A DNA stretch of 38,328 nt, taken from assembly GCA_017694885.1 (NCBI GenBank), contig JADIMH010000069.1, forward strand, positions 1 to 38,328. Reading direction: 5' to 3'. Below, one piece after another: positions 5,363 to 15,804 of this stretch. Made by a program: the position numbers and the translations under genes. This stretch comes from Candidatus Cryptobacteroides faecipullorum. GTDB lineage: Bacteria; Bacteroidota; Bacteroidia; Bacteroidales; UBA932. Position 1 is the first letter of the stretch, and each line of letters starts with the position of its first letter. The notes under the pieces are model-generated. The model searched no databases. It was given only the letters and a program-made list of their open reading frames with translations, and was not told where the DNA came from.

Positions 5363-6661
5363 TCAGATATTCCCGGCAAGGAACTGATCGTATGCCGACA
5401 TGTCTACGAGTCCGTGTCCTGAAAGGTTGAAAAGAAGCACCTTGCTTTCACCCGACTCTTTGCATTTGAGCGCTTCTTTGACAGTGGCGGCTATAGCGTG
5501 GCAGGATTCCGGAGCGGGGATTATCCCTTCACAGCGGGCGAACATGCAACCTGCCGCAAAAGAGTCATGCTGGCTTATGTCTGCAGCTTCCATATAACCG
5601 TCTTTCAACAGTTGCGAAGCAATGACGCCCGCCCCGTGATACCTGAGACCTCCGGCATGTATATTGGCTGGCGTAAATTCGTGGCCGAGAGAGAACATCG
5701 GCATAAGAGGCGTATATCCTGCCGTATCACCGAAATCATAGCGGAATTCGCCTTTGGTCAGTTTCGGACAGGACTCAGGTTCTGCGGCCACGAACCTTGT
5801 TTTCCTCTCTCCTGAAAAGACATGCCTCATGAACGGGAAAGAGATTCCTCCGAAGTTCGATCCTCCTCCGAAGCAGGCTATCACCACATCAGGGTATTCT
5901 CCTGCCAACTCCATCTGCTTTTCTGCTTCGAGCCCGATTACTGTCTGATGGAGAGTTACATGATTCATGACAGAACCGAGGGTGTATTTGCATCCCGGGG
6001 TCATTCTTGCCAGTTCCACGGCCTCGGAAATTGCTGTGCCCAACGACCCTTGGTGATGGGGCGATTTCGTAAGGATATCTTTCCCGGCTCTTGTGGACAT
6101 GGAAGGAGAAGGGGTCACCTGTGCCCCGAACACCTGCATCATGCTCCGCCGGTATGGTTTCTGTTCGTAGCTGATCCTGACCTGGTACACGGCTGCTTCC
6201 AGTCCGAAAAGTCTTGCGGCGTATGAAAGGGCGGTTCCCCACTGGCCGGCACCCGTTTCGGTCGTTACGTTCGTTACTCCTTCCATTTTACAATAATATG
6301 CTTGTGCCAGGGCTGAATTCAGCTTGTGAGACCCTACCGGACTTACGCTTTCGTTCTTGAAGTAAATATGGGCAGGAGTATCCAGTTCCTTTTCCATCCC
6401 GTAAGCCCTTACAAGCGGAGTGGCCCGGTAATATGCGTATTGTTCAACGACTTCTTCCGGGATGTCGAACCACCTGTGTTCCGTATCGAGTTCCTGTCTG
6501 CACGCTTCTTCCGCGAAGATGGGATAAAGGTCTTCTGCTTTTACCGGCTGTCCGGTAGACGGATTCAGCATTGGAAGCGGTTTTACCGGCATGTCTGCCT
6601 GGATGTTGTACCATTGTCGGGGGATACGGTCTTCAGTGAGCAGGAATCTTTTCTGTTTCAT
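5363..6661 (-). CDS. trpB: TrpB2-type tryptophan synthase beta chain
   Basis: This 432-aa PLP enzyme joins indole and serine to make tryptophan. The PLP lysine is K113 in 'PVGSHKLN', and the phosphate-binding 'CFGGGSNFGG' loop and 'ETGAGQWG' motif are present. The N-terminal 'TEDRIPRQWYNIQADMP' and overall length identify the TrpB2 class, which can work without a TrpA partner. I chose the ATG at 6659-6661 because the family motif starts there; an in-frame ATG 35 codons upstream would read through the sdhC terminator hairpin. No other trp gene is nearby, so this may serve indole salvage or serine-linked chemistry rather than the main pathway. That role is inference. Confidence 0.92.
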   Translation of the reverse strand: MKQKRFLLTEDRIPRQWYNIQADMPVKPLPMLNPSTGQPVKAEDLYPIFAEEACRQELDTEHRWFDIPEEVVEQYAYYRATPLVRAYGMEKELDTPAHIYFKNESVSPVGSHKLNSALAQAYYCKMEGVTNVTTETGAGQWGTALSYAARLFGLEAAVYQVRISYEQKPYRRSMMQVFGAQVTPSPSMSTRAGKDILTKSPHHQGSLGTAISEAVELARMTPGCKYTLGSVMNHVTLHQTVIGLEAEKQMELAGEYPDVVIACFGGGSNFGGISFPFMRHVFSGERKTRFVAAEPESCPKLTKGEFRYDFGDTAGYTPLMPMFSLGHEFTPANIHAGGLRYHGAGVIASQLLKDGYMEAADISQHDSFAAGCMFARCEGIIPAPESCHAIAATVKEALKCKESGESKVLLFNLSGHGLVDMSAYDQFLAGNI

Positions 6662-6697
6662 GATTATTGGTTTTTGTCGGTTTGCGTATATACGAAA

Positions 6698-6724
6698 ACA
6701 GGCTGCCGGATTACGGCAGCCTGT
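6698..6724 (-). terminator. Intrinsic terminator after sdhC
   Basis: An 11-bp perfect inverted repeat (ACAGGCTGCCG at 6698-6708, CGGCAGCCTGT at 6714-6724) has a 5-nt loop. Read leftward it is followed by TTTTCG, a short T tract. It lies between the sdhC stop and the trpB start, so it either ends sdhC transcription or limits read-through into trpB. No leader ORF rich in Trp codons was found, so attenuation is not supported. Confidence 0.65.
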
Positions 6725-6749
6725 CTGTTTCCTGGATGATCCCTCGGAT

Positions 6750-7436
6750 TTAACAGCAAGCTTCAATGCATGAATTTACTGCTACGATAGCGAAGCCGAG
6801 GAATATGATGGTTGCAAAAATATATGCAAGTACTTTCAGTCTGCCGAGCCATATCTTGTTGTCCCAACCGATGGTCTGGAATGCGCTCCAGAAACCGTGT
6901 GTAAGATGGAACCAGAGAGCTCCGAACCAGATGATGTAGATGACTACGTTAAACCAGTTCCCGAATGTGGCGGTAAGCAGGAGATAAGGATCTTCAGCGT
7001 GATTGCCAGTCCATTCCTGCAGCTGCATGTCTGCCCAGAAATGGGTGAGGTGGAATACAAGGATACCCAGAACTATGATACCCAGAACTATCATGTTCTT
7101 GGATGCCCATGAATCGGTTCTGGCCTTGCTGGCAACAGCGTAACGGTTATATCCACCGCGTGCTTTCAGGTTGCTGAAAGTAAGGATAAGTGCATAGATG
7201 ATGTGGATAATGAATCCGAAAGCAAGTACAGGAACCATTACGGTCACTATTGGCAGGGACATGAATTCGCATCCGACTGCAAAAAGCCCGTCCGGAGATC
7301 CGAAAGTGCCGTTGATGGAGTCAATCACCGAAAAGAGATTGATAGTCATGTGCAGAAGGAGGAAGATAATGAGGAATAGTCCGCTGATGCTCATAATGAG
7401 CTTCTTGCCGATTGAAGATGTGAAAATGTTCGCCAT
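6750..7436 (-). CDS. sdhC: Succinate dehydrogenase/fumarate reductase cytochrome b subunit (b558 family)
   Basis: This 228-aa integral membrane protein has five hydrophobic segments and the histidines expected to hold two b hemes ('LLLHMTIN', 'FIIHIIYAL', 'LVFHLTHFW', 'ALWFHLTHGFWSAFQ'). It matches the Bacteroidota/epsilon b558 SdhC family in length. In this family the subunit anchors the flavoprotein SdhA and iron-sulfur SdhB and passes electrons between them and menaquinone. Those two genes normally follow sdhC directly. Here they do not: a terminator hairpin and trpB follow instead. SdhA/SdhB are therefore encoded elsewhere, or the gene has been separated from them. A TATATTTG element lies upstream. 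Confidence 0.93.
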   Translation of the reverse strand: MANIFTSSIGKKLIMSISGLFLIIFLLLHMTINLFSVIDSINGTFGSPDGLFAVGCEFMSLPIVTVMVPVLAFGFIIHIIYALILTFSNLKARGGYNRYAVASKARTDSWASKNMIVLGIIVLGILVFHLTHFWADMQLQEWTGNHAEDPYLLLTATFGNWFNVVIYIIWFGALWFHLTHGFWSAFQTIGWDNKIWLGRLKVLAYIFATIIFLGFAIVAVNSCIEACC

Positions 7437-8994: not shown

Positions 8995-9031
8995 CAGGAG
9001 CCGGTCGCAACACTTCTGCGGCCGGCTCCTG
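8995..9031 (+). terminator. Hairpin terminator after frr
   Basis: A 15-bp stem (CAGGAGCCGGTCGCA at 8995-9009 with TGCGGCCGGCTCCTG at 9017-9031, one G-U pair) has a 7-nt loop. It is followed by TTCTGT, a weak T tract. It probably ends the pyrH-frr transcript. Confidence 0.65.
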
Positions 9032-9100
9032 TTCTGTATGTATTGTGCTGCCGGTGCATTAAATTTTCAGAAATAATGCGGATGCAAAAAAATTTTTTCG

Positions 9101-9108
9101 TAGCTTTG
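9101..9108 (+). promoter_or_regulatory. -7 promoter element for the aromatic amino acid operon
   Basis: TAGCTTTG is a full TAnnTTTG match. The leader-peptide ATG codons begin 8 and 11 bp further on. Transcription should therefore start only a few bases before the leader ORF, which would be translated with almost no 5' leader. No good -33 box is visible. Confidence 0.55.
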
Positions 9109-9116
9109 TTACCATT

Positions 9117-9176
9117 ATGATGGATTTTCGATTTAACGCTTTCGGTTTTTATTATTTCTATTACCCAGTAAGGTGA
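9117..9176 (+). CDS. Phe/Tyr-rich leader peptide of the aromatic amino acid operon
   Basis: A 19-codon ORF starts at tandem ATGs (9117, 9120) and ends with TGA at 9174-9176. The peptide is MMDFRFNAFGFYYFYYPVR, with five Phe and four Tyr codons in 19. It resembles the E. coli PheL leader in composition, though not in sequence. It sits just downstream of a -7 element and just upstream of alternative hairpins ending in an intrinsic terminator, before prephenate dehydratase. In the known mechanism, shortage of charged tRNA-Phe or tRNA-Tyr stalls the ribosome here and lets an antiterminator form. Both amino acids are products of the downstream operon. No homology search was possible; the assignment rests on composition and position. 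Confidence 0.82.
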   Translation: MMDFRFNAFGFYYFYYPVR

Positions 9177-9249
9177 TGGACCGGAAGTCGTGTATAGCAT
9201 ATAAATGAGGTTTTATGGGCTGTCCGGTAAAAACCGGACAGCTTTTTTT
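9141..9249 (+). promoter_or_regulatory. Four-segment transcription attenuator upstream of pheA
   Basis: Segment 1 (9141-9146, TTCGGT) lies inside the leader Phe codons and can pair with segment 2 (9180-9185). Segment 2 (9180-9189, ACCGGAAGTC), just after the leader stop, can instead pair with segment 3 (9218-9228, GGCTGTCCGGT) over 10 bp with G9222 bulged. Segment 3 can instead pair with segment 4 (9233-9242) as the terminator. The 1:2, 2:3 and 3:4 pairings are mutually exclusive in the trp/phe manner. A ribosome stalled on Phe/Tyr codons covers segment 1 and leaves 2 free; one at the stop codon would cover 2. Confidence 0.75.
9219..9249 (+). terminator. Attenuator terminator before pheA
   Basis: A perfect 10-bp stem (GCTGTCCGGT at 9219-9228, ACCGGACAGC at 9233-9242) has a four-A loop. 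It is followed directly by seven T residues (9243-9249), the strongest intrinsic terminator in the window. It lies inside the operon leader, 64 bp before the pheA start. Confidence 0.9.
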
Positions 9250-9313
9250 CTGCGCGGCAGAACAGGTAATCCGAACCTTTGCATTCGGGATTAAAATATA
9301 AACAGACAATAAA

Positions 9314-10189
9314 ATGAACAAACCTAAGAAAATAGCGATTCAAGGTTTTGCCGGATGTTTTCATGAACAGGCGGCGAGACTGTTCTATCTTAATGAGGGC
9401 AAAGATAGAAGTGCCGGAGCAGGGGAGGGTGCTGCCGAAGCACTGGAGATAATAGAGTGCAGCACATTCGACGGTCTGTATGATGCCATGGACCGGAAGA
9501 AAGCCGACGCTGCGATCATGGCTATCGAGAATACGGTTTCCGGAGGACTGTTGCCGAATTTCGAACTTCTCCGCAAGCACGATGAAAAAATAAAAGGGGA
9601 GATTTTCCTGAGGATATGCCAGAACCTTATGGTTCTTCCAGGCCAGAAGATAGAGGATATCCATGAGGTAAGGACGCATTATATGGCCATCAACCAGACC
9701 CGGCAGTTTTTCGCCGGATATCCGCACATACGGCTCGTGGAGTCAGAAGATACGGCCAAGAGTGCGGCAGACATAGCTGCCGGGAAGATTTACGGGGTAG
9801 GGGCTGTCGCCTCATCTTTGGCCGCGGAGCTTTACGGACTGGAAATCATAGCCCCGGGCATAGAGACCTATAAGCAGAATTTCACCAGGTTCCTTATAAT
9901 GGATGACGGGATAACGGTCCCGGAAAACGAAATCGACAAGGTCTCGCTTTGCTTTACCCTTCCTCACAAGGCCGGTTCATTGGCGCAGGTGCTTACCATC
10001 CTTTCTTTTTATGACATGAATCTGACCAGGATCCAGTCTCTCCCGATTCCAGGACGCGAATGGCAGTATTTCTTCTATGTAGATATTAAATTCGATTCAT
10101 ATAAGCGTTATACCCAGGCACTTTCCGCAGTCCGTCCGCTGATGGAGGACTTGAAGATCCTCGGCGAATACCGCAGTTTCCATCCTTAA
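9314..10189 (+). CDS. pheA: Prephenate dehydratase
   Basis: This 291-aa enzyme turns prephenate into phenylpyruvate in phenylalanine synthesis. Residues ~5-200 are the dehydratase domain, with 'AIENTVSGGLLPNFELL' in the substrate site and the catalytic TRF motif at T191-F193. Residues ~205-290 are an ACT regulatory domain. The usual Phe-binding 'ESRP' is replaced by 'IQSLP' within 'LTRIQSLPIPGREWQYFFYVD', which may alter feedback by phenylalanine. There is no fused chorismate mutase; that activity is carried by the fourth gene. It is first in the operon, under the Phe/Tyr leader attenuator. Confidence 0.95.
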   Translation: MNKPKKIAIQGFAGCFHEQAARLFYLNEGKDRSAGAGEGAAEALEIIECSTFDGLYDAMDRKKADAAIMAIENTVSGGLLPNFELLRKHDEKIKGEIFLRICQNLMVLPGQKIEDIHEVRTHYMAINQTRQFFAGYPHIRLVESEDTAKSAADIAAGKIYGVGAVASSLAAELYGLEIIAPGIETYKQNFTRFLIMDDGITVPENEIDKVSLCFTLPHKAGSLAQVLTILSFYDMNLTRIQSLPIPGREWQYFFYVDIKFDSYKRYTQALSAVRPLMEDLKILGEYRSFHP

Positions 10190-10205: not shown

Positions 10206-11492
10206 ATGATAATACGACCTGCAGTCAGAACAGAAAACATAAACGAATATTATTTTTCTGCCAAACTTAAAGAAATTGACCGCCTGAACGCTGCCAGAGG
10301 GGCGGCGGGGCAGGACAGGATCATCAACCTCGGCATCGGAGCCCCTGACGGCATGCCGCCATCTCCTGCCATAGATGCTTTGGTTTCCTCTGCCGCAGAG
10401 CCGGGGAACCATGCATACCAGAGTTATATCGGAATCCCCGAGCTTCGCCGGGCTTTTTCCTGTTGGTACAGGCGGTATTATGGCGTAGAGCTCGATCCGG
10501 CTTCGGAAATACAGCCTTTGGTCGGGTCCAAGGAAGGGATCCTGCTTCTGTCTCTGGCTTTTCTGAATGAAGGGGACCAGGTCCTGGTCCCTGATCCGGG
10601 CTATCCGACATATTCGTCCGCAACGGCTCTGGTCCAGGCTGAACCGCTGAAATATGACCTGGTGGAGGACAAAGGCTGGCAGCCTGATTTCGAAGCGCTC
10701 GAAAACATGGATCTTTCCGGAGTGAAGATGATGTGGACCAATTATCCGAATATGCCTACAGGAGCACCTGCAACGGAAGACCTTTACAGGAAACTGGTGG
10801 ATTTCGGACTCCGGCACGGGATAATGATATGCAATGACAACCCGTATAGCTTTATCCTGACGCCCCGTCCTCTGTCTATACTCGGGGTTCCAGGGGCGAA
10901 ATCGTGCTGCGTTGAACTGAATTCCCTCAGCAAGGCGCACAACATGTCCGGATGGAGAATAGGAATGGTCGCGGCTGACAAGGAAGTGATATCCCAGGTC
11001 CTGAAAGTCAAGAGCCAGATGGATTCAGGGATGTTCAGGCCTTTGCAGCTGGCTGCTGTCAGGGCGCTGGAGCAAGGCCCGGAATGGTTTGAAGCCCTCA
11101 ATGCGGAATACCGGAGGCGGAAGGTCCTTGCCGGAAGGATATTCGACATCATCGGGGCGGAGTATGATCCGGACAGTATGGGTATGTTCCTCTGGGGAAA
11201 GGTAGGCAAGGACAGTCCTTTGGCTGCGGAAAGCCGGCCGTCGGCGCCCGGACCGGGATTCGGCGGACATGACATCGGGCCGGACTCTCGAAAGAAGGCA
11301 GAGGACAGCCGTTCGCTCGGAGAAAAGGTATCCGACCGGATTCTGTATGATGCAGGAGTGTTTATAACGCCGGGATTCATTTTCGGAAAAAACGGCAGGG
11401 ACTATATCCGTATTTCATTGTGCGCCAGACCTGAAATTCTCGAAAGCGCTGCGGATAAAATAAAAGCTGCAAAAGAGAAGTTCCAGGGATAA
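10206..11492 (+). CDS. Class I/II PLP aminotransferase of the aromatic pathway
   Basis: This 428-aa fold-type I aminotransferase has its PLP lysine at K243 in 'SLSKAHNMSGWRIGM'. Other family motifs are 'NLGIGAPDG', 'VPDPGYPTYSSA' and 'NYPNMPTGAPA'. Placed 16 bp after prephenate dehydratase and 17 bp before prephenate dehydrogenase, it probably aminates phenylpyruvate and 4-hydroxyphenylpyruvate to Phe and Tyr. That substrate choice is inferred from context, since the family also includes LL-diaminopimelate and aspartate enzymes. An unusual polar, Gly/Pro/Ser-rich insert of ~35 residues lies at about 11214-11322, between 'WGKVGKDSP' and 'SLGEKVSDRIL'. The frame stays open through it. Confidence 0.9.
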   Translation: MIIRPAVRTENINEYYFSAKLKEIDRLNAARGAAGQDRIINLGIGAPDGMPPSPAIDALVSSAAEPGNHAYQSYIGIPELRRAFSCWYRRYYGVELDPASEIQPLVGSKEGILLLSLAFLNEGDQVLVPDPGYPTYSSATALVQAEPLKYDLVEDKGWQPDFEALENMDLSGVKMMWTNYPNMPTGAPATEDLYRKLVDFGLRHGIMICNDNPYSFILTPRPLSILGVPGAKSCCVELNSLSKAHNMSGWRIGMVAADKEVISQVLKVKSQMDSGMFRPLQLAAVRALEQGPEWFEALNAEYRRRKVLAGRIFDIIGAEYDPDSMGMFLWGKVGKDSPLAAESRPSAPGPGFGGHDIGPDSRKKAEDSRSLGEKVSDRILYDAGVFITPGFIFGKNGRDYIRISLCARPEILESAADKIKAAKEKFQG

Positions 11493-11509: not shown

Positions 11510-12388
11510 ATGAAACAGTATAAGATAACAGTCATAGGCCTGGGCCTCATAGGAGGCTCGATGGCCGTTGATCTTAAGCGTCGGGGGTTCGCTTCCCGTG
11601 TCATGGGGGTCGAAGCGGATCCGGTAAATGCCGCGGCGGCTCTGAAGATAGGGCTGGTCGATCAGGCAGTTTCCTATGATAGATGTCTGGAAGATACGGA
11701 TCTGGTCATCCTTGCGGTGCCGGTAGGGGAAGCTGTGAGGATGCTTCCGGAAATACTTGACCGGATCGGCTCCGAAAAGCAGGATTCCGGTATGAAACGG
11801 CACATGACAGTCATAGATGTATGTTCCACCAAATCCGCTTTGGTCAGATCTGTGGAAAACCATCCGTGCAGAGACAGATATGTTTCCACGCATCCTATGG
11901 CAGGTACCGAGTATTCAGGGCCATGGGCGGCGATGTCCGGCATGTTTGACGGGAAGGCCTGCGTGATCTGTGACGGGGAAAAGTCCGGAAAGGATGCGCT
12001 CGAAACAGTGGAAAACCTATATGATGTATTGAACATGAGGACAATACGGATGAATGCCATAAACCATGACATGCACGCGGCGTATGTTTCCCATATATCG
12101 CACGTAACTTCATTCGCCCTGGCTTTGACCGTACTGAAGAAGGAGCGGAGCGACAGACACATTTTCGACCTTGCTTCGGGTGGCTTTTCTTCTACTGTCA
12201 GACTTGCCAAGAGCAATGCTGACATGTGGGTGCCTATCCTTACCCAGAACAGGGACAACATTCTGGATGTCATCGATACCTACATGGATGAGATGAAAGC
12301 TTTCAGAGATGCTATCGCTTCAGGGGACGGGGACGGAATCCGTGGACTTATCGGAGAAGCAAACAGGATAAAAAGGATTATCAAATAA
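11510..12388 (+). CDS. tyrA: Prephenate dehydrogenase
   Basis: This 292-aa enzyme oxidises and decarboxylates prephenate to 4-hydroxyphenylpyruvate for tyrosine synthesis. The Rossmann motif 'GLGLIGGSMA' is at residues 10-19, 'VIDVCSTKS' follows the dinucleotide domain, and the signature 'HPMAGTE' is at 128-134. The C-terminal helical domain includes 'ASGGFSSTVRLAKSN'. It lacks fused mutase and ACT domains. It is third in the aromatic operon, 17 bp after the aminotransferase and 13 bp before the DAHP synthase gene, and is covered by the same attenuator. Confidence 0.95.
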   Translation: MKQYKITVIGLGLIGGSMAVDLKRRGFASRVMGVEADPVNAAAALKIGLVDQAVSYDRCLEDTDLVILAVPVGEAVRMLPEILDRIGSEKQDSGMKRHMTVIDVCSTKSALVRSVENHPCRDRYVSTHPMAGTEYSGPWAAMSGMFDGKACVICDGEKSGKDALETVENLYDVLNMRTIRMNAINHDMHAAYVSHISHVTSFALALTVLKKERSDRHIFDLASGGFSSTVRLAKSNADMWVPILTQNRDNILDVIDTYMDEMKAFRDAIASGDGDGIRGLIGEANRIKRIIK

Positions 12389-12401
12389 AAATTGACATGA
12401 T

Positions 12402-13508
12402 ATGGAAAGAAAATTAGAGATTGTACCGGTGGGCAAATGGGGAATTTTCCCGGAAGGGCAACCTTTGGTGATAGCCGGTCCTTGCAGTGCTGAATCAGAG
12501 ATTCAGGTAATGGAAACTGCCAGGAGAATTAAAACATTGGGAGTTAATGTATTCCGCGCCGGAATATGGAAGCCGCGTACGCATCCGGGAACTTTTGAAG
12601 GTGTCGGTACTCCCGGACTTAAATGGATGCAGAGGGTAAAGAACGAGCTCGGAATGAAGATAAGTACCGAGGTTGCGAGCGAACGTCATGTGTTCGACTG
12701 TCTGAAATACGGGGTGGATATGGTATGGCTCGGAGCCAGGACTACGGCCAATCCGTTTTTGGTTCAGGAGATAGCCGATGCATTGAAGGACGTGGATATT
12801 CCGGTGCTGGTGAAAAACCCTGTCAGCCCTGACCTTGATCTGTGGATAGGAGCTCTTGAACGTCTTAATAGCGCGGGTATCAAAAAGATAGGGGTAATCC
12901 ACCGGGGATTTTCCACTTCTGACAGGATTCCGTACAGGAATTCTCCTCAATGGCAGATTGCCATAGAACTGAGAAGCCGGTATCCGCAGCTTCCGTTTTT
13001 CTGCGACCCGAGTCACATGGCAGGCTGTACGGAGTACATCGAAGAAATATCGCAGAGGTCCCTTGATCTGGGACTTGACGGGCTGATGATAGAAACGCAT
13101 TGCGATCCGTCATGCGCCTTGAGCGATGCCAGGCAGCAGCTTACTCCAGAGCAGTTGGGCGATCTGCTGGGCAGGCTGGTTGTCCGCAATCAGGATTCGG
13201 ACAATGTCGAGTACAAGGAAAACATAGATCAGCTGAGGGCTCAGATCGATGTCATAGATGACAATATTCTCTATATCCTGGGTTCGAGGATGAAAATCAG
13301 CCGTAAGATAGGCGAATATAAAAAGAAGAACAATATCGCTATTCTCCAGACTTCCCGCTGGGATTCAATTCTTGAGAAGGTGACGGCAAAAGGCGCCGAG
13401 TACGGACTGTCCGAGAAATTCGTCACGACTCTTTTCAATGCTGTCCATGAGGCTTCCGTACAGGAACAGAACGCTATCCTCGGAGCTTCCGGTCAAGAAG
13501 GGAAGTGA
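12402..13508 (+). CDS. Bifunctional DAHP synthase / chorismate mutase
   Basis: This 368-aa fusion covers the first step of the shikimate pathway and the chorismate-to-prephenate branch step. Residues ~20-265 are a type I-beta (KDO8P-synthase-like) DAHP synthase with 'GPCSAES' at 26-32, 'FRAGIWKPRTHPGTFEG', 'LVKNPVSPDL' and the metal-binding 'CDPSHMAG'. Residues ~275-360 are an AroQ-type mutase helix bundle ('LRAQIDVIDDNILYILGSRMKISRKIGEYKK'). It feeds prephenate to the two enzymes encoded upstream and closes the operon. Its last 35 bp overlap the 3' end of lpxK on the other strand. Confidence 0.95.
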   Translation: MERKLEIVPVGKWGIFPEGQPLVIAGPCSAESEIQVMETARRIKTLGVNVFRAGIWKPRTHPGTFEGVGTPGLKWMQRVKNELGMKISTEVASERHVFDCLKYGVDMVWLGARTTANPFLVQEIADALKDVDIPVLVKNPVSPDLDLWIGALERLNSAGIKKIGVIHRGFSTSDRIPYRNSPQWQIAIELRSRYPQLPFFCDPSHMAGCTEYIEEISQRSLDLGLDGLMIETHCDPSCALSDARQQLTPEQLGDLLGRLVVRNQDSDNVEYKENIDQLRAQIDVIDDNILYILGSRMKISRKIGEYKKKNNIAILQTSRWDSILEKVTAKGAEYGLSEKFVTTLFNAVHEASVQEQNAILGASGQEGK

Positions 13509-14610: not shown

Positions 14611-15594
14611 CTAATCTTTGTTTTTCAATTTTTTTATCTCTTTATCAAAATCACTTTCATATGACAACATTTCGCGTTTACGGTAGATTTCAAATTCTTT
14701 TTCAGCTTTTTCAATGGCCTGTTTATGCGAAATGTTTCCTTTGCCGGTCAAAACTTTCCGTTTACTGGCAATAATCTGACTGTCAAGAGCCTTGATCCAG
14801 TCTTTCATTGTCATGGGATTCATTTCCAGTGCCTGGAGTTCTGCAAAATCCAGAAATCCTGAAACCAGAAGATTCAAGCGCTGCAGTTCAATCTCAGATA
14901 AATAATTCTTGGCGATTTTTACATCGTCCTTAGTTACATAATTGCCTTTAAAATTGGTCATTCCTACAAAAGGTTTTCCGTTATCTACACGATGGTAGAT
15001 TATTTCTGCGGCGGTATTTTCATGGACGGCATAATGTAACTTGTTTTGTACAGTGGCAAAGAAAGTTTTGGTTATCTCACTGCGCGGGTCATAATCCGTT
15101 GACGTGGCATAAATATCCGTAACCTGCTGATAGAAATTACGCTCACTACTACGGATATCCCTGATTCGCTGCAACAACTCACGGAAATAACGGTTGCCTC
15201 CTTGCTTTAACCGTTCGTCATCCAGTGCAAACCCTTTCTGGATATACTCATGCAGCCGTTGTGTCGCCCATCTGCGGAAACGGGTTGCGACCTGAGACTG
15301 GATACGATACCCCAAAGCTATAATCATATCAAGATTATAATGGTCTATGTTACGTTTTACCTGACGATTGCCTTCCTGTCGAACTGACAAGAATTTCTTG
15401 TTAGTTGCTTCTATGTTGAGTTCGCCATCTTTGTAGATATTGTCCACATGTCGGCTGATATTCTGCTGGGTAGTACAATATATTTCCGCCAGTTGATTCT
15501 GTGTCAGCCACAAATCCTCATCTGCAAACCGCACCGATACGCTGGTTATCTCGTCATCGTCCTGATAGATTATTATTTTGTTTTCGTTATTCAT
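14611..15594 (-). CDS. RhuM-family protein
   Basis: This 327-aa protein belongs to the virulence_RhuM family, named after a gene in Salmonella pathogenicity island 3 and common on islands and phage-like regions. The N-terminal ~100 residues look like a DNA-binding module ('LWLTQNQLAEIYCTTQQNISRHVDNIYKDGEL'). The rest is the conserved RhuM body ('LGYRIQSQVATRFRRWATQRL', 'FVGMTNFKGNYVTKDDVKIAKNYLSE'). The biochemical function is unknown. I chose the ATG at 15592-15594; an upstream ATG would extend 51 codons through the direct repeats. It separates dusB from lpxK and is probably a recent insertion. Its own promoter copy lies 29 bp upstream. Confidence 0.9.
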   Translation of the reverse strand: MNNENKIIIYQDDDEITSVSVRFADEDLWLTQNQLAEIYCTTQQNISRHVDNIYKDGELNIEATNKKFLSVRQEGNRQVKRNIDHYNLDMIIALGYRIQSQVATRFRRWATQRLHEYIQKGFALDDERLKQGGNRYFRELLQRIRDIRSSERNFYQQVTDIYATSTDYDPRSEITKTFFATVQNKLHYAVHENTAAEIIYHRVDNGKPFVGMTNFKGNYVTKDDVKIAKNYLSEIELQRLNLLVSGFLDFAELQALEMNPMTMKDWIKALDSQIIASKRKVLTGKGNISHKQAIEKAEKEFEIYRKREMLSYESDFDKEIKKLKNKD

Positions 15595-15622
15595 GATTCT
15601 ATCATCTCTTCGGATTTTGGTC

Positions 15623-15730
15623 ACAAATATACGCAGAAGCCGAGCGCAATGCAAGCTTGTTTGCATTGCCGAGGCGCAACAGTATAAATGGCGCGCAAGC
15701 GACAAATATACGCAGAAGCCGAGCGCAATG
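15623..15730. repeat. 29-bp direct repeat pair flanking a palindrome
   Basis: Bases 15623-15651 and 15702-15730 are identical over 29 bp with a 79-bp period. Each copy contains, on the minus strand, a TATATTTG -7 promoter element (complement of 15624-15631 and 15703-15710). Between them, GCAATGCAA (15646-15654) pairs with TTGCATTGC (15661-15669) across a 6-nt loop. The layout resembles a small dispersed palindromic repeat, or a duplication left by an insertion, upstream of the RhuM gene. Confidence 0.85.
15624..15631 (-). promoter_or_regulatory. -7 promoter element for the RhuM-lpxK transcript
   Basis: Read leftward it is TATATTTG, matching TAnnTTTG, 29 bp before the chosen RhuM start. An identical element lies in the second repeat copy at 15703-15710, giving a possible tandem promoter. 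Confidence 0.55.
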
Positions 15731-15804
15731 GAAATAAATTCCTTCAATTTTCATTACCGGCATTCCCGATTTGCCGGAGGTGGACATTCGGGTATCTGAC
15801 CGGA

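Follow-up and report, generated by a model that had tools for sequence, protein, structure and literature searches.

The pheA operon and its leader region

The window, that is, the whole stretch of DNA that was analysed, covers 38,328 nucleotides of Candidatus Cryptobacteroides faecipullorum, within a 91%-complete assembly of 2.43 Mb and 72 contigs. On the forward strand, the pyrH-frr pair is followed by a leader region and by pheA, an aminotransferase gene, tyrA and a 3-deoxy-7-phosphoheptulonate (DAHP) synthase gene, separated by gaps of 16, 17 and 13 nt. The features of the locus were as follows.

8995..9031, + strand: intrinsic terminator of pyrH-frr, a 15-pair hairpin (-31.5 kcal/mol, z -6.6)
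9101..9108, + strand: predicted Bacteroidota -7 promoter box TAnnTTTG, TAGCTTTG, called from sequence; transcription start predicted near 9113
9117..9176, + strand: leader peptide ORF MMDFRFNAFGFYYFYYPVR, ATG 9117, TGA 9174-9176, 19 codons
9139..9146, + strand: strand 1, CTTTCGGT, pairing with 9180-9187 in the minimum free energy fold (74.9% of cells paired)
9158..9165, + strand: 5' arm of the hairpin over the leader end, CTATTACC, stacked on 1:2 and pairing with 9172-9179 (93.5% of cells paired)
9172..9179, + strand: 3' arm of the same hairpin, GGTGATGG, containing the stop codon and pairing with 9158-9165
9180..9189, + strand: strand 2, ACCGGAAGTC, antiterminator 5' arm, starting 3 nt past the stop codon
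9218..9228, + strand: strand 3, GGCTGTCCGGT, antiterminator 3' arm and terminator 5' arm
9233..9242, + strand: strand 4, ACCGGACAGC, terminator 3' arm, pairing with 9219-9228
9243..9249, + strand: T7 run closing the intrinsic terminator, where the attenuated RNA is predicted to end
9314..10189, + strand: pheA, prephenate dehydratase (best NCBIfam match PRK11898, below cut-off; Pfam PDT, E 9.9e-46, above cut-off)
10206..11492, + strand: PLP aminotransferase of the DapC/aspartate aminotransferase type, below NCBIfam cut-offs
11510..12388, + strand: tyrA, prephenate dehydrogenase (PRK08507, above cut-off)
12402..13508, + strand: DAHP synthase-chorismate mutase fusion, below NCBIfam cut-offs

An earlier note on this DNA had placed an aromatic operon that includes the first shikimate-pathway enzyme behind the leader, and this was borne out by the assignment of prephenate dehydratase, an aminotransferase, prephenate dehydrogenase and the DAHP synthase-chorismate mutase fusion. 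Among these four enzymes, the dehydrogenase alone scored above an NCBIfam cut-off, and the aminotransferase is likely aromatic, as its gene context suggests. The terminator at 8995..9031 sets pyrH-frr apart from the predicted promoter of the attenuator. Searches of the 91%-complete assembly found neither HisG nor IlvD nor the N-terminal domain of TrpE; the genome therefore offered no sister attenuators for comparison, and the bacterium may depend on external His, Trp and branched-chain amino acids. A TrpB-like enzyme (PRK12391; window 5363-6766, reverse strand) was kept, and a 378-aa ORF without an NCBIfam match lay at 14611-15747, also on the reverse strand.

The 19-codon ORF with five Phe and four Tyr codons matched its earlier description base for base; nine of its 19 codons are aromatic, so that a short ORF enriched in end-product codons, as expected of an attenuator, was present at 9117-9176. 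A second in-frame ATG at 9120 would give 18 codons. When the window was cut into overlapping 400-nt pieces on both strands, a short ORF with at least six Phe or Tyr in nine residues occurred in 2 of 380 pieces, both containing this leader ORF.

Three pairings had been proposed behind the ORF. The 2:3 pairing (9180-9189 with 9218-9228; 10 pairs, one bulged base, -14.3 kcal/mol) and the 3:4 pairing (9219-9228 with 9233-9242, then T7 at 9243-9249) were found as described, and strand 2 does begin 3 nt after the leader stop codon. The 1:2 pairing, given as 9141-9146 (TTCGGT) with 9180-9185 (ACCGGA), was present but had been drawn too short, as it really joins 9139-9146 to 9180-9187 and is accompanied by the helix 9158-9165 with 9172-9179. 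The leader thus held an intrinsic terminator, a hairpin of 12 pairs plus T7, and a mutually exclusive antiterminator, the combination by which attenuators are recognised. None of 200 shuffles was as stable as the terminator (z = -6.3) or as the whole leader (z = -5.0).

A -7 box has been placed at -12 to -5 in the excerpted text of PMC9723704, and if that position applies here, the first transcribed base would be 9113, which lies 4 nt ahead of the ATG. Among 61 genus-level leaders, the distance from the box to the leader ATG was exactly 16 nt in 36 and no more than 19 nt in 41, while a spacing of at most 19 nt was seen in one of the 72 leaders from the order and two of the 24 from the class. 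No clear -33 element was seen by eye. Where the spacing was 16 nt, the bases between the box and the ATG (window 9112-9119) were conserved as C-C-G-T-T, each position agreeing in 28-34 of 35 leaders; the window itself reads C-C-A-T-T. Untranslated 5' regions shorter than 10 nt make up about 3.7% in B. thetaiotaomicron, according to an excerpt of PMC7366714. The excerpted report on F. johnsoniae described mostly leadered transcripts, with an A at -3 favouring initiation (PMC6847099), and the C-G-T-T-ATG common in the genus does not provide that favoured A.

Conservation and co-evolution of the leader

Leaders were sought in relatives as an ORF of 9-45 codons with at least six Phe or Tyr in some nine residues, within the 400 nt upstream of pheA. 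Loci with less than 300 nt upstream were left out of the counts, as was L214, which gave no match. An aromatic ORF preceded pheA at 61 of the 88 loci belonging to the genus Cryptobacteroides or close to it (the window included), in 72 of 80 loci from other families of the order and in 24 of 25 loci from other orders of the class, the class set being 25 examined out of 44 genomes with a match. None was found in the 400 nt upstream of pheA at 29 loci outside the class but in the same phylum. The controls gave 1 of 222 on the opposite strand and 65 of 3840 (1.7%) in Markov-shuffled sequences. The genus-level loci comprise those of genomes of the stated genus and those found by PheA similarity (70-87% identity), one of which, L108, is labelled Rikenellaceae.

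Conservation of the Phe/Tyr codons in related leaders, put forward in the earlier note as a check, was found upstream of pheA and in frame: across 157 leaders, Phe and Tyr made up 81% of the densest nine codons in frame 0 versus 24% and 28% in the other frames. Both residues were present in 155 of the 157. In the genus-level alignment, Phe and Tyr swapped freely at several positions (29 Phe and 27 Tyr at one, 26 and 25 at another). At two codons whose third base joins 1:2, that base was nearly fixed: the codon before Gly was TTC or TAC in 44 of 48 leaders, and the one opening the second helix in 54 of 58. The Arg-Phe codons CGA-TTT (CGATTT, window 9129-9134) were unchanged in all but one of the 58 aligned genus-level leaders.

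Behind the leader, a terminator of at most -6 kcal/mol was present in 61 of 61 genus-level, 71 of 72 order and 21 of 24 class loci, compared with 6 of 53 in a Markov null. For the pairing comparison, weaker terminators and those more than 110 nt behind the stop codon were left out. Strand 2 paired better with its own strand 3 than with foreign ones in the order (-13.7 vs -9.1 kcal/mol, n=66, p=2.6e-12) and in the class (-13.5 vs -8.7 kcal/mol, n=21, p=2e-4). At genus level, own and foreign strands paired equally well (n=61, p=0.55) because the strands there are nearly invariant. When compared with its own shuffles, the 2:3 pairing ranked above 95% of them in 31 of 61 genus-level, 61 of 66 order and 17 of 21 class leaders. 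Strand-2 positions were taken from duplexes of at most -8 kcal/mol (60 of 61 genus-level, 64 of 66 order and 17 of 21 class leaders), and in the order and class strand 2 started mostly inside the last ORF codons, not behind the stop.

Pair counts were made on 58 of 59 genus-level leaders, the overlong stretch L113 being left out of the alignment. The 3:4 pairing had 94.1% of cells paired, with two-sided changes in 5 pairs and 47 cells. For 2:3, 92.3% of cells were paired and 14 were two-sided; the first pair accounted for 12 of these, 11 being A-U to U-A. The 1:2 pairing had 84.9% of cells paired with 44 two-sided cells. The compensatory changes that had been looked for in 2:3 and 3:4 were therefore found. 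For all three pairings, every one of 500 shuffles fell short of the observed percentage paired, of the count of two-sided cells and of the covariation score. The number of two-sided pairs and of pair types was not always exceptional against the 500 shuffles, and for 2:3 two of the five measures were unexceptional (269 of 500 and 137 of 500). We suggest that CGAU of the leader and AUCG behind strand 2 (window 9186-9199) may form a 5' extension of 1:2 in many relatives; about 74-75% of its cells were paired and its covariation score exceeded all 500 shuffles, while its pair types were unexceptional (496 of 500 shuffles as high).

The window itself holds one attenuator only. Among 105 loci (104 from the order and class and one from the genus), 16, from 11 families of the order, had two aromatic ORFs ahead of pheA, each with its own terminator: L115, L116, L120, L121, L124, L131, L132, L133, L179, L185, L191, L207, L210, L213, L220 and L221. 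The script had called 17; L193 was discounted, as its first ORF is poor in Phe and Tyr and does not pair. In 12 of the 16, representing 9 families, the 2:3 pairings of both modules were better than 95% of 100 shuffles, uncorrected for multiple comparisons.

A covariance model built from the 58-leader alignment gave one match in the window's own genome (E 8.7e-26) and 49 matches at E < 1e-10 in 200 genus genomes, one each, many of them being the model's own sequences. The 44 of these whose surroundings were examined all lay upstream of pheA (30 by tblastn, 14 by position). In the order, 32 of 198 genomes matched at E <= 0.001, and only the window's own genome and G129 fell below 2e-6. The surroundings of four order-level matches, L296-L299, were read, and these proved to be terminators without an aromatic leader. 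With the order matches weak and these four leaderless, the usefulness of the model is confined to the genus.

Of the 88 genus-level loci, 27 failed the leader test and 24 of these had no leader that could be found; the other three do have one, further upstream in L011 and L038 and just under the threshold in L107. Four loci (L078, L089, L103 and L112) had a terminator without a leader ORF between frr and pheA, keeping there only the CTGTCCGG hairpin and a T-run, and are likely decayed attenuators. The pattern that the earlier note had named as speaking against itself, a terminator kept while the aromatic codons are lost, occurred in a minority, with 27 of 88 loci failing the leader test and these four keeping a terminator. 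In about 16 of the remaining misses, another gene runs up to pheA, as judged by eye, and the class miss L159 likewise had no leader, with pheA directly behind a gene. No leader was found before distant pheA homologues (26-30% identity) in the 20 read of 23 genus genomes having only such a homologue, with starts taken mechanically and less than 200 nt readable in two.

Other operons of the genus carried related leaders. In L295, a distinct operon with a bifunctional chorismate mutase-prephenate dehydratase (by eye) had the aromatic leader MNCARYFYFYFYAAVLKMDGHDFVRG and a terminator, in contrast to the 20 other loci with a distant pheA. L290 and L291 are sister operons starting with the aminotransferase gene, not pheA, followed by tyrA, with DAHP synthase seen in L291; their leaders, MKESTLNHYSGIFVYYLSR or MKESTLKYYSGIFVYYLSR, had 1 Phe and 3-4 Tyr codons and were weaker matches to the covariance model. 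In G090, one of the two sister genomes, pheA lies at another locus (L328) that lacks a leader. We considered and rejected the idea that leaders drift towards Tyr once pheA leaves the operon, as L095, with pheA, also has 1 Phe, and the pheA-less operons of G059 and G061 have no leader; those of G067 and G098 begin at a contig end. Since L290 and L291 are nearly identical, the Tyr shift amounts to one event and is weak.

Proposed switch and rival explanations

The region 9101-9249 is very probably a leader-peptide transcription attenuator, as its sequence indicates, through which the ribosome would signal to the pheA-aminotransferase-tyrA-DAHP synthase operon how much charged Phe- and Tyr-tRNA is available. 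The predicted transcription start lies near 9113, some 4 nt ahead of the ATG. When neither amino acid is scarce, the ribosome would reach the stop codon at 9174-9176 and cover strand 2, leaving strand 3 to pair with strand 4, and RNA polymerase would stop near 9249. With Phe or Tyr short, the ribosome would stall in the Phe/Tyr run and open 1:2, and strand 2 would stay free; 2:3 could then form ahead of strand 4 synthesis, and the operon would be read. On a leader without a ribosome, the 1:2 hairpin would hide strand 2, and termination would likely be the default. This model assumes that transcription and translation are coupled in the phylum.

The switch was modelled by folding the nascent RNA as far as the terminator loop while holding the bases under the ribosome unpaired; this footprint comprised the A-site codon, 15 nt on its 5' side and 12 nt on its 3' side. 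In the window, the probability of 2:3 was 0.00 with the ribosome at the stop codon and 0.17 without a ribosome, before strand 4 is made. With stalled ribosomes, it was 0.69-0.96 at codons 4-13, 0.85 at codon 15 and at most 0.02 at codons 14 and 16-19. Six of the nine aromatic codons gave 0.85-0.96 and a seventh 0.69; stalls at the other two (9156-9158 and 9162-9164) left 2:3 unformed with the 12-nt footprint behind the codon. With 15 nt behind the codon, codon 14 freed 2:3 as well, and with 9 nt, codons 4 and 15 did not. The earlier claim that a ribosome at the stop hides strand 2 and one stalled at Phe/Tyr codons leaves it free was thus supported in silico for the stop and for six to seven of the nine aromatic codons, but not for two. 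Stalls at Arg, Asn, Ala and Gly codons also freed 2:3, and specificity therefore rests on codon content alone. The finished RNA at equilibrium always favoured the terminator, and the switch accordingly depends on timing.

Across 59 genus-level leaders, the median probability of 2:3 was 0.00 for a ribosome at the stop codon, 0.77 when averaged over aromatic codons and 0.04 on the ribosome-free RNA. Clear switching was obtained in 50 of 59 genus-level, 54 of 66 order and 14 of 21 class leaders, and not obtained in the model for 9, 12 and 7, respectively. The ribosome-free probability was 0.65 in the order and 0.97 in the class. This differing ribosome-free state, together with the position of strand 2 in the order and class, makes the enterobacterial-type layout look genus-specific. 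The layout with a protecting 1:2 hairpin looks to be a feature of this genus, the older form, as we infer the history, having been a two-state device.

Other readings of the region were weighed against the attenuator. The nascent leader could be an arrest peptide, its Arg-Phe and aromatic run stalling in the exit tunnel on free Phe or Tyr rather than for lack of charged tRNA; TnaC stalls in response to Trp. The CGA-TTT codons are more constant in the genus-level leaders (57 of 58) than three pairings need, and Arg-Phe occurred in 59 of 61 genus-level leaders, where shuffled peptides predict 28, and in 13 of the 24 leaders from the class, where they predict 8. However, Arg-Phe was no commoner than chance in the order (14 of 72 versus 19), the invariant bases may stem from the 5' extension of 1:2, and the free exchange of Phe and Tyr elsewhere in the leader suits tRNA sensing, not a defined peptide. 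We consider an arrest peptide very unlikely. Slightly less probable still is a role in trans, besides or instead of the one in cis, for the attenuated RNA (about 137 nt) as a small RNA or for the peptide. Precedent for this exists in peTrpL of Sinorhizobium, as far as the excerpted source describes it, but nothing in the sequence calls for trans action, and the cis pairings explain the conservation.

A plain terminator against pyrH-frr read-through, with the aromatic ORF a T-rich tract open by chance, would suit the four genus-level loci (L078, L089, L103 and L112) that have a terminator without a leader ORF. It appears highly improbable, as frr already has its own, stronger terminator at 8995-9031, the Phe/Tyr content is frame-specific, strand 2 co-evolves with strand 3 and the ORF lies upstream of pheA across the class. 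A metabolite-binding riboswitch or a T-box would likewise account for a long structured 5' region before an amino acid operon. The window matched no Rfam family at gathering thresholds, and the T-box models matched neither the window nor 9000-9400; six Rfam matches within 9000-9400 had E-values of 0.79 or worse, far below gathering scores, and none was a T-box or aromatic-sensing family. As the conserved part consists of the ORF and the pairings that occupy it, we regard a riboswitch or T-box as the least probable of these readings.

Relation to known leaders and implications

The attenuator proposed here resembles the enterobacterial Phe leader (pheL/pheA; Rfam Phe_leader) and trpL in having an ORF of product codons, alternative 1:2, 2:3 and 3:4 pairings, a U-run and a biosynthetic operon behind it. 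The geometry of the pheL/pheA and trpL leaders is the basis of this comparison, and the position of strand 2 just behind the stop codon is a further likeness; in relatives from the order and class, strand 2 instead lies mostly inside the last codons. Unlike the enterobacterial leaders, the one proposed here would respond to Phe as well as to Tyr and govern pheA, tyrA and DAHP synthase together, and its predicted start, about 4 nt before the ATG, leaves no room for a Shine-Dalgarno site. The Rfam Phe_leader model did not match the window at its gathering score or 9000-9400 at E up to 10.

Bacteroid-trp (RF01692) is an attenuator with Trp codons; its model, too, left the window unmatched at the gathering score and 9000-9400 unmatched at E up to 10. 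The excerpted text of Weinberg 2010 presents it as a likely cis-regulatory RNA motif of Bacteroidetes, with a name that points to trp genes (PMC2864571). In Flavobacterium psychrophilum, the excerpt of PMC9723704 describes a structured pheA 5' element, found in other Flavobacteriaceae genera too, without Rfam matches and left unexplained there, and separately mentions strong clues for leader-peptide attenuation before amino acid operons. That element is alike in being a structured region 5' of pheA in Bacteroidia and unlike in belonging to another order; the comparison is by description, the excerpt giving neither peptide nor pairings. Short ORFs reminiscent of leader peptides have been remarked in B. 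thetaiotaomicron, in the excerpted part of PMC7366714. Before adding Firmicutes, a 2010 survey, as excerpted, knew no leader-peptide system shown outside Proteobacteria and Actinobacteria (PMC2965389). The earlier note's statement that such attenuators are best known from proteobacteria needs qualifying, as the phylum already has Bacteroid-trp and the Flavobacterium report. No Rfam family fits the window. Among the matches listed from the open-licence PMC literature, none reported a Phe/Tyr attenuator in Bacteroidales by title or abstract. A 2010 comparative survey by Lopatovskaya and colleagues may contain related predictions. Two leader ORFs also form tandem attenuators in Salmonella mgtCBR, where mgtM and mgtP sense different signals, ATP and proline, according to the excerpt of PMC3641672. 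The 16 related loci described here would be serial attenuators as well, with both ORFs rich in Phe and Tyr in these relatives.

Less ordinary in the present case are the predicted 5' untranslated region of about 4 nt, the apparent class-wide presence and the putative serial attenuators in 16 related loci. Taken jointly, an uncatalogued family of Phe/Tyr attenuators may have governed pheA since early in Bacteroidia, with ribosomes that ignore Shine-Dalgarno sites. In Cryptobacteroides the system would be started nearly leaderless, the ribosome loading about 4 nt from the 5' end, and would have gained the 1:2 shield and with it default termination, while in nine to eleven other families the device would have been doubled in series. 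We give this joint reading about even chances.

If the class-wide spread is true, transcription and translation would be coupled closely enough for attenuation throughout the class, and the system would offer a direct test of whether RNA polymerase and a non-Shine-Dalgarno ribosome travel together. The tandem versions would be a natural test of attenuator doubling. A Phe/Tyr attenuator that co-evolves across the class would, if true, make such leaders a main control of aromatic amino acid synthesis in Bacteroidia.
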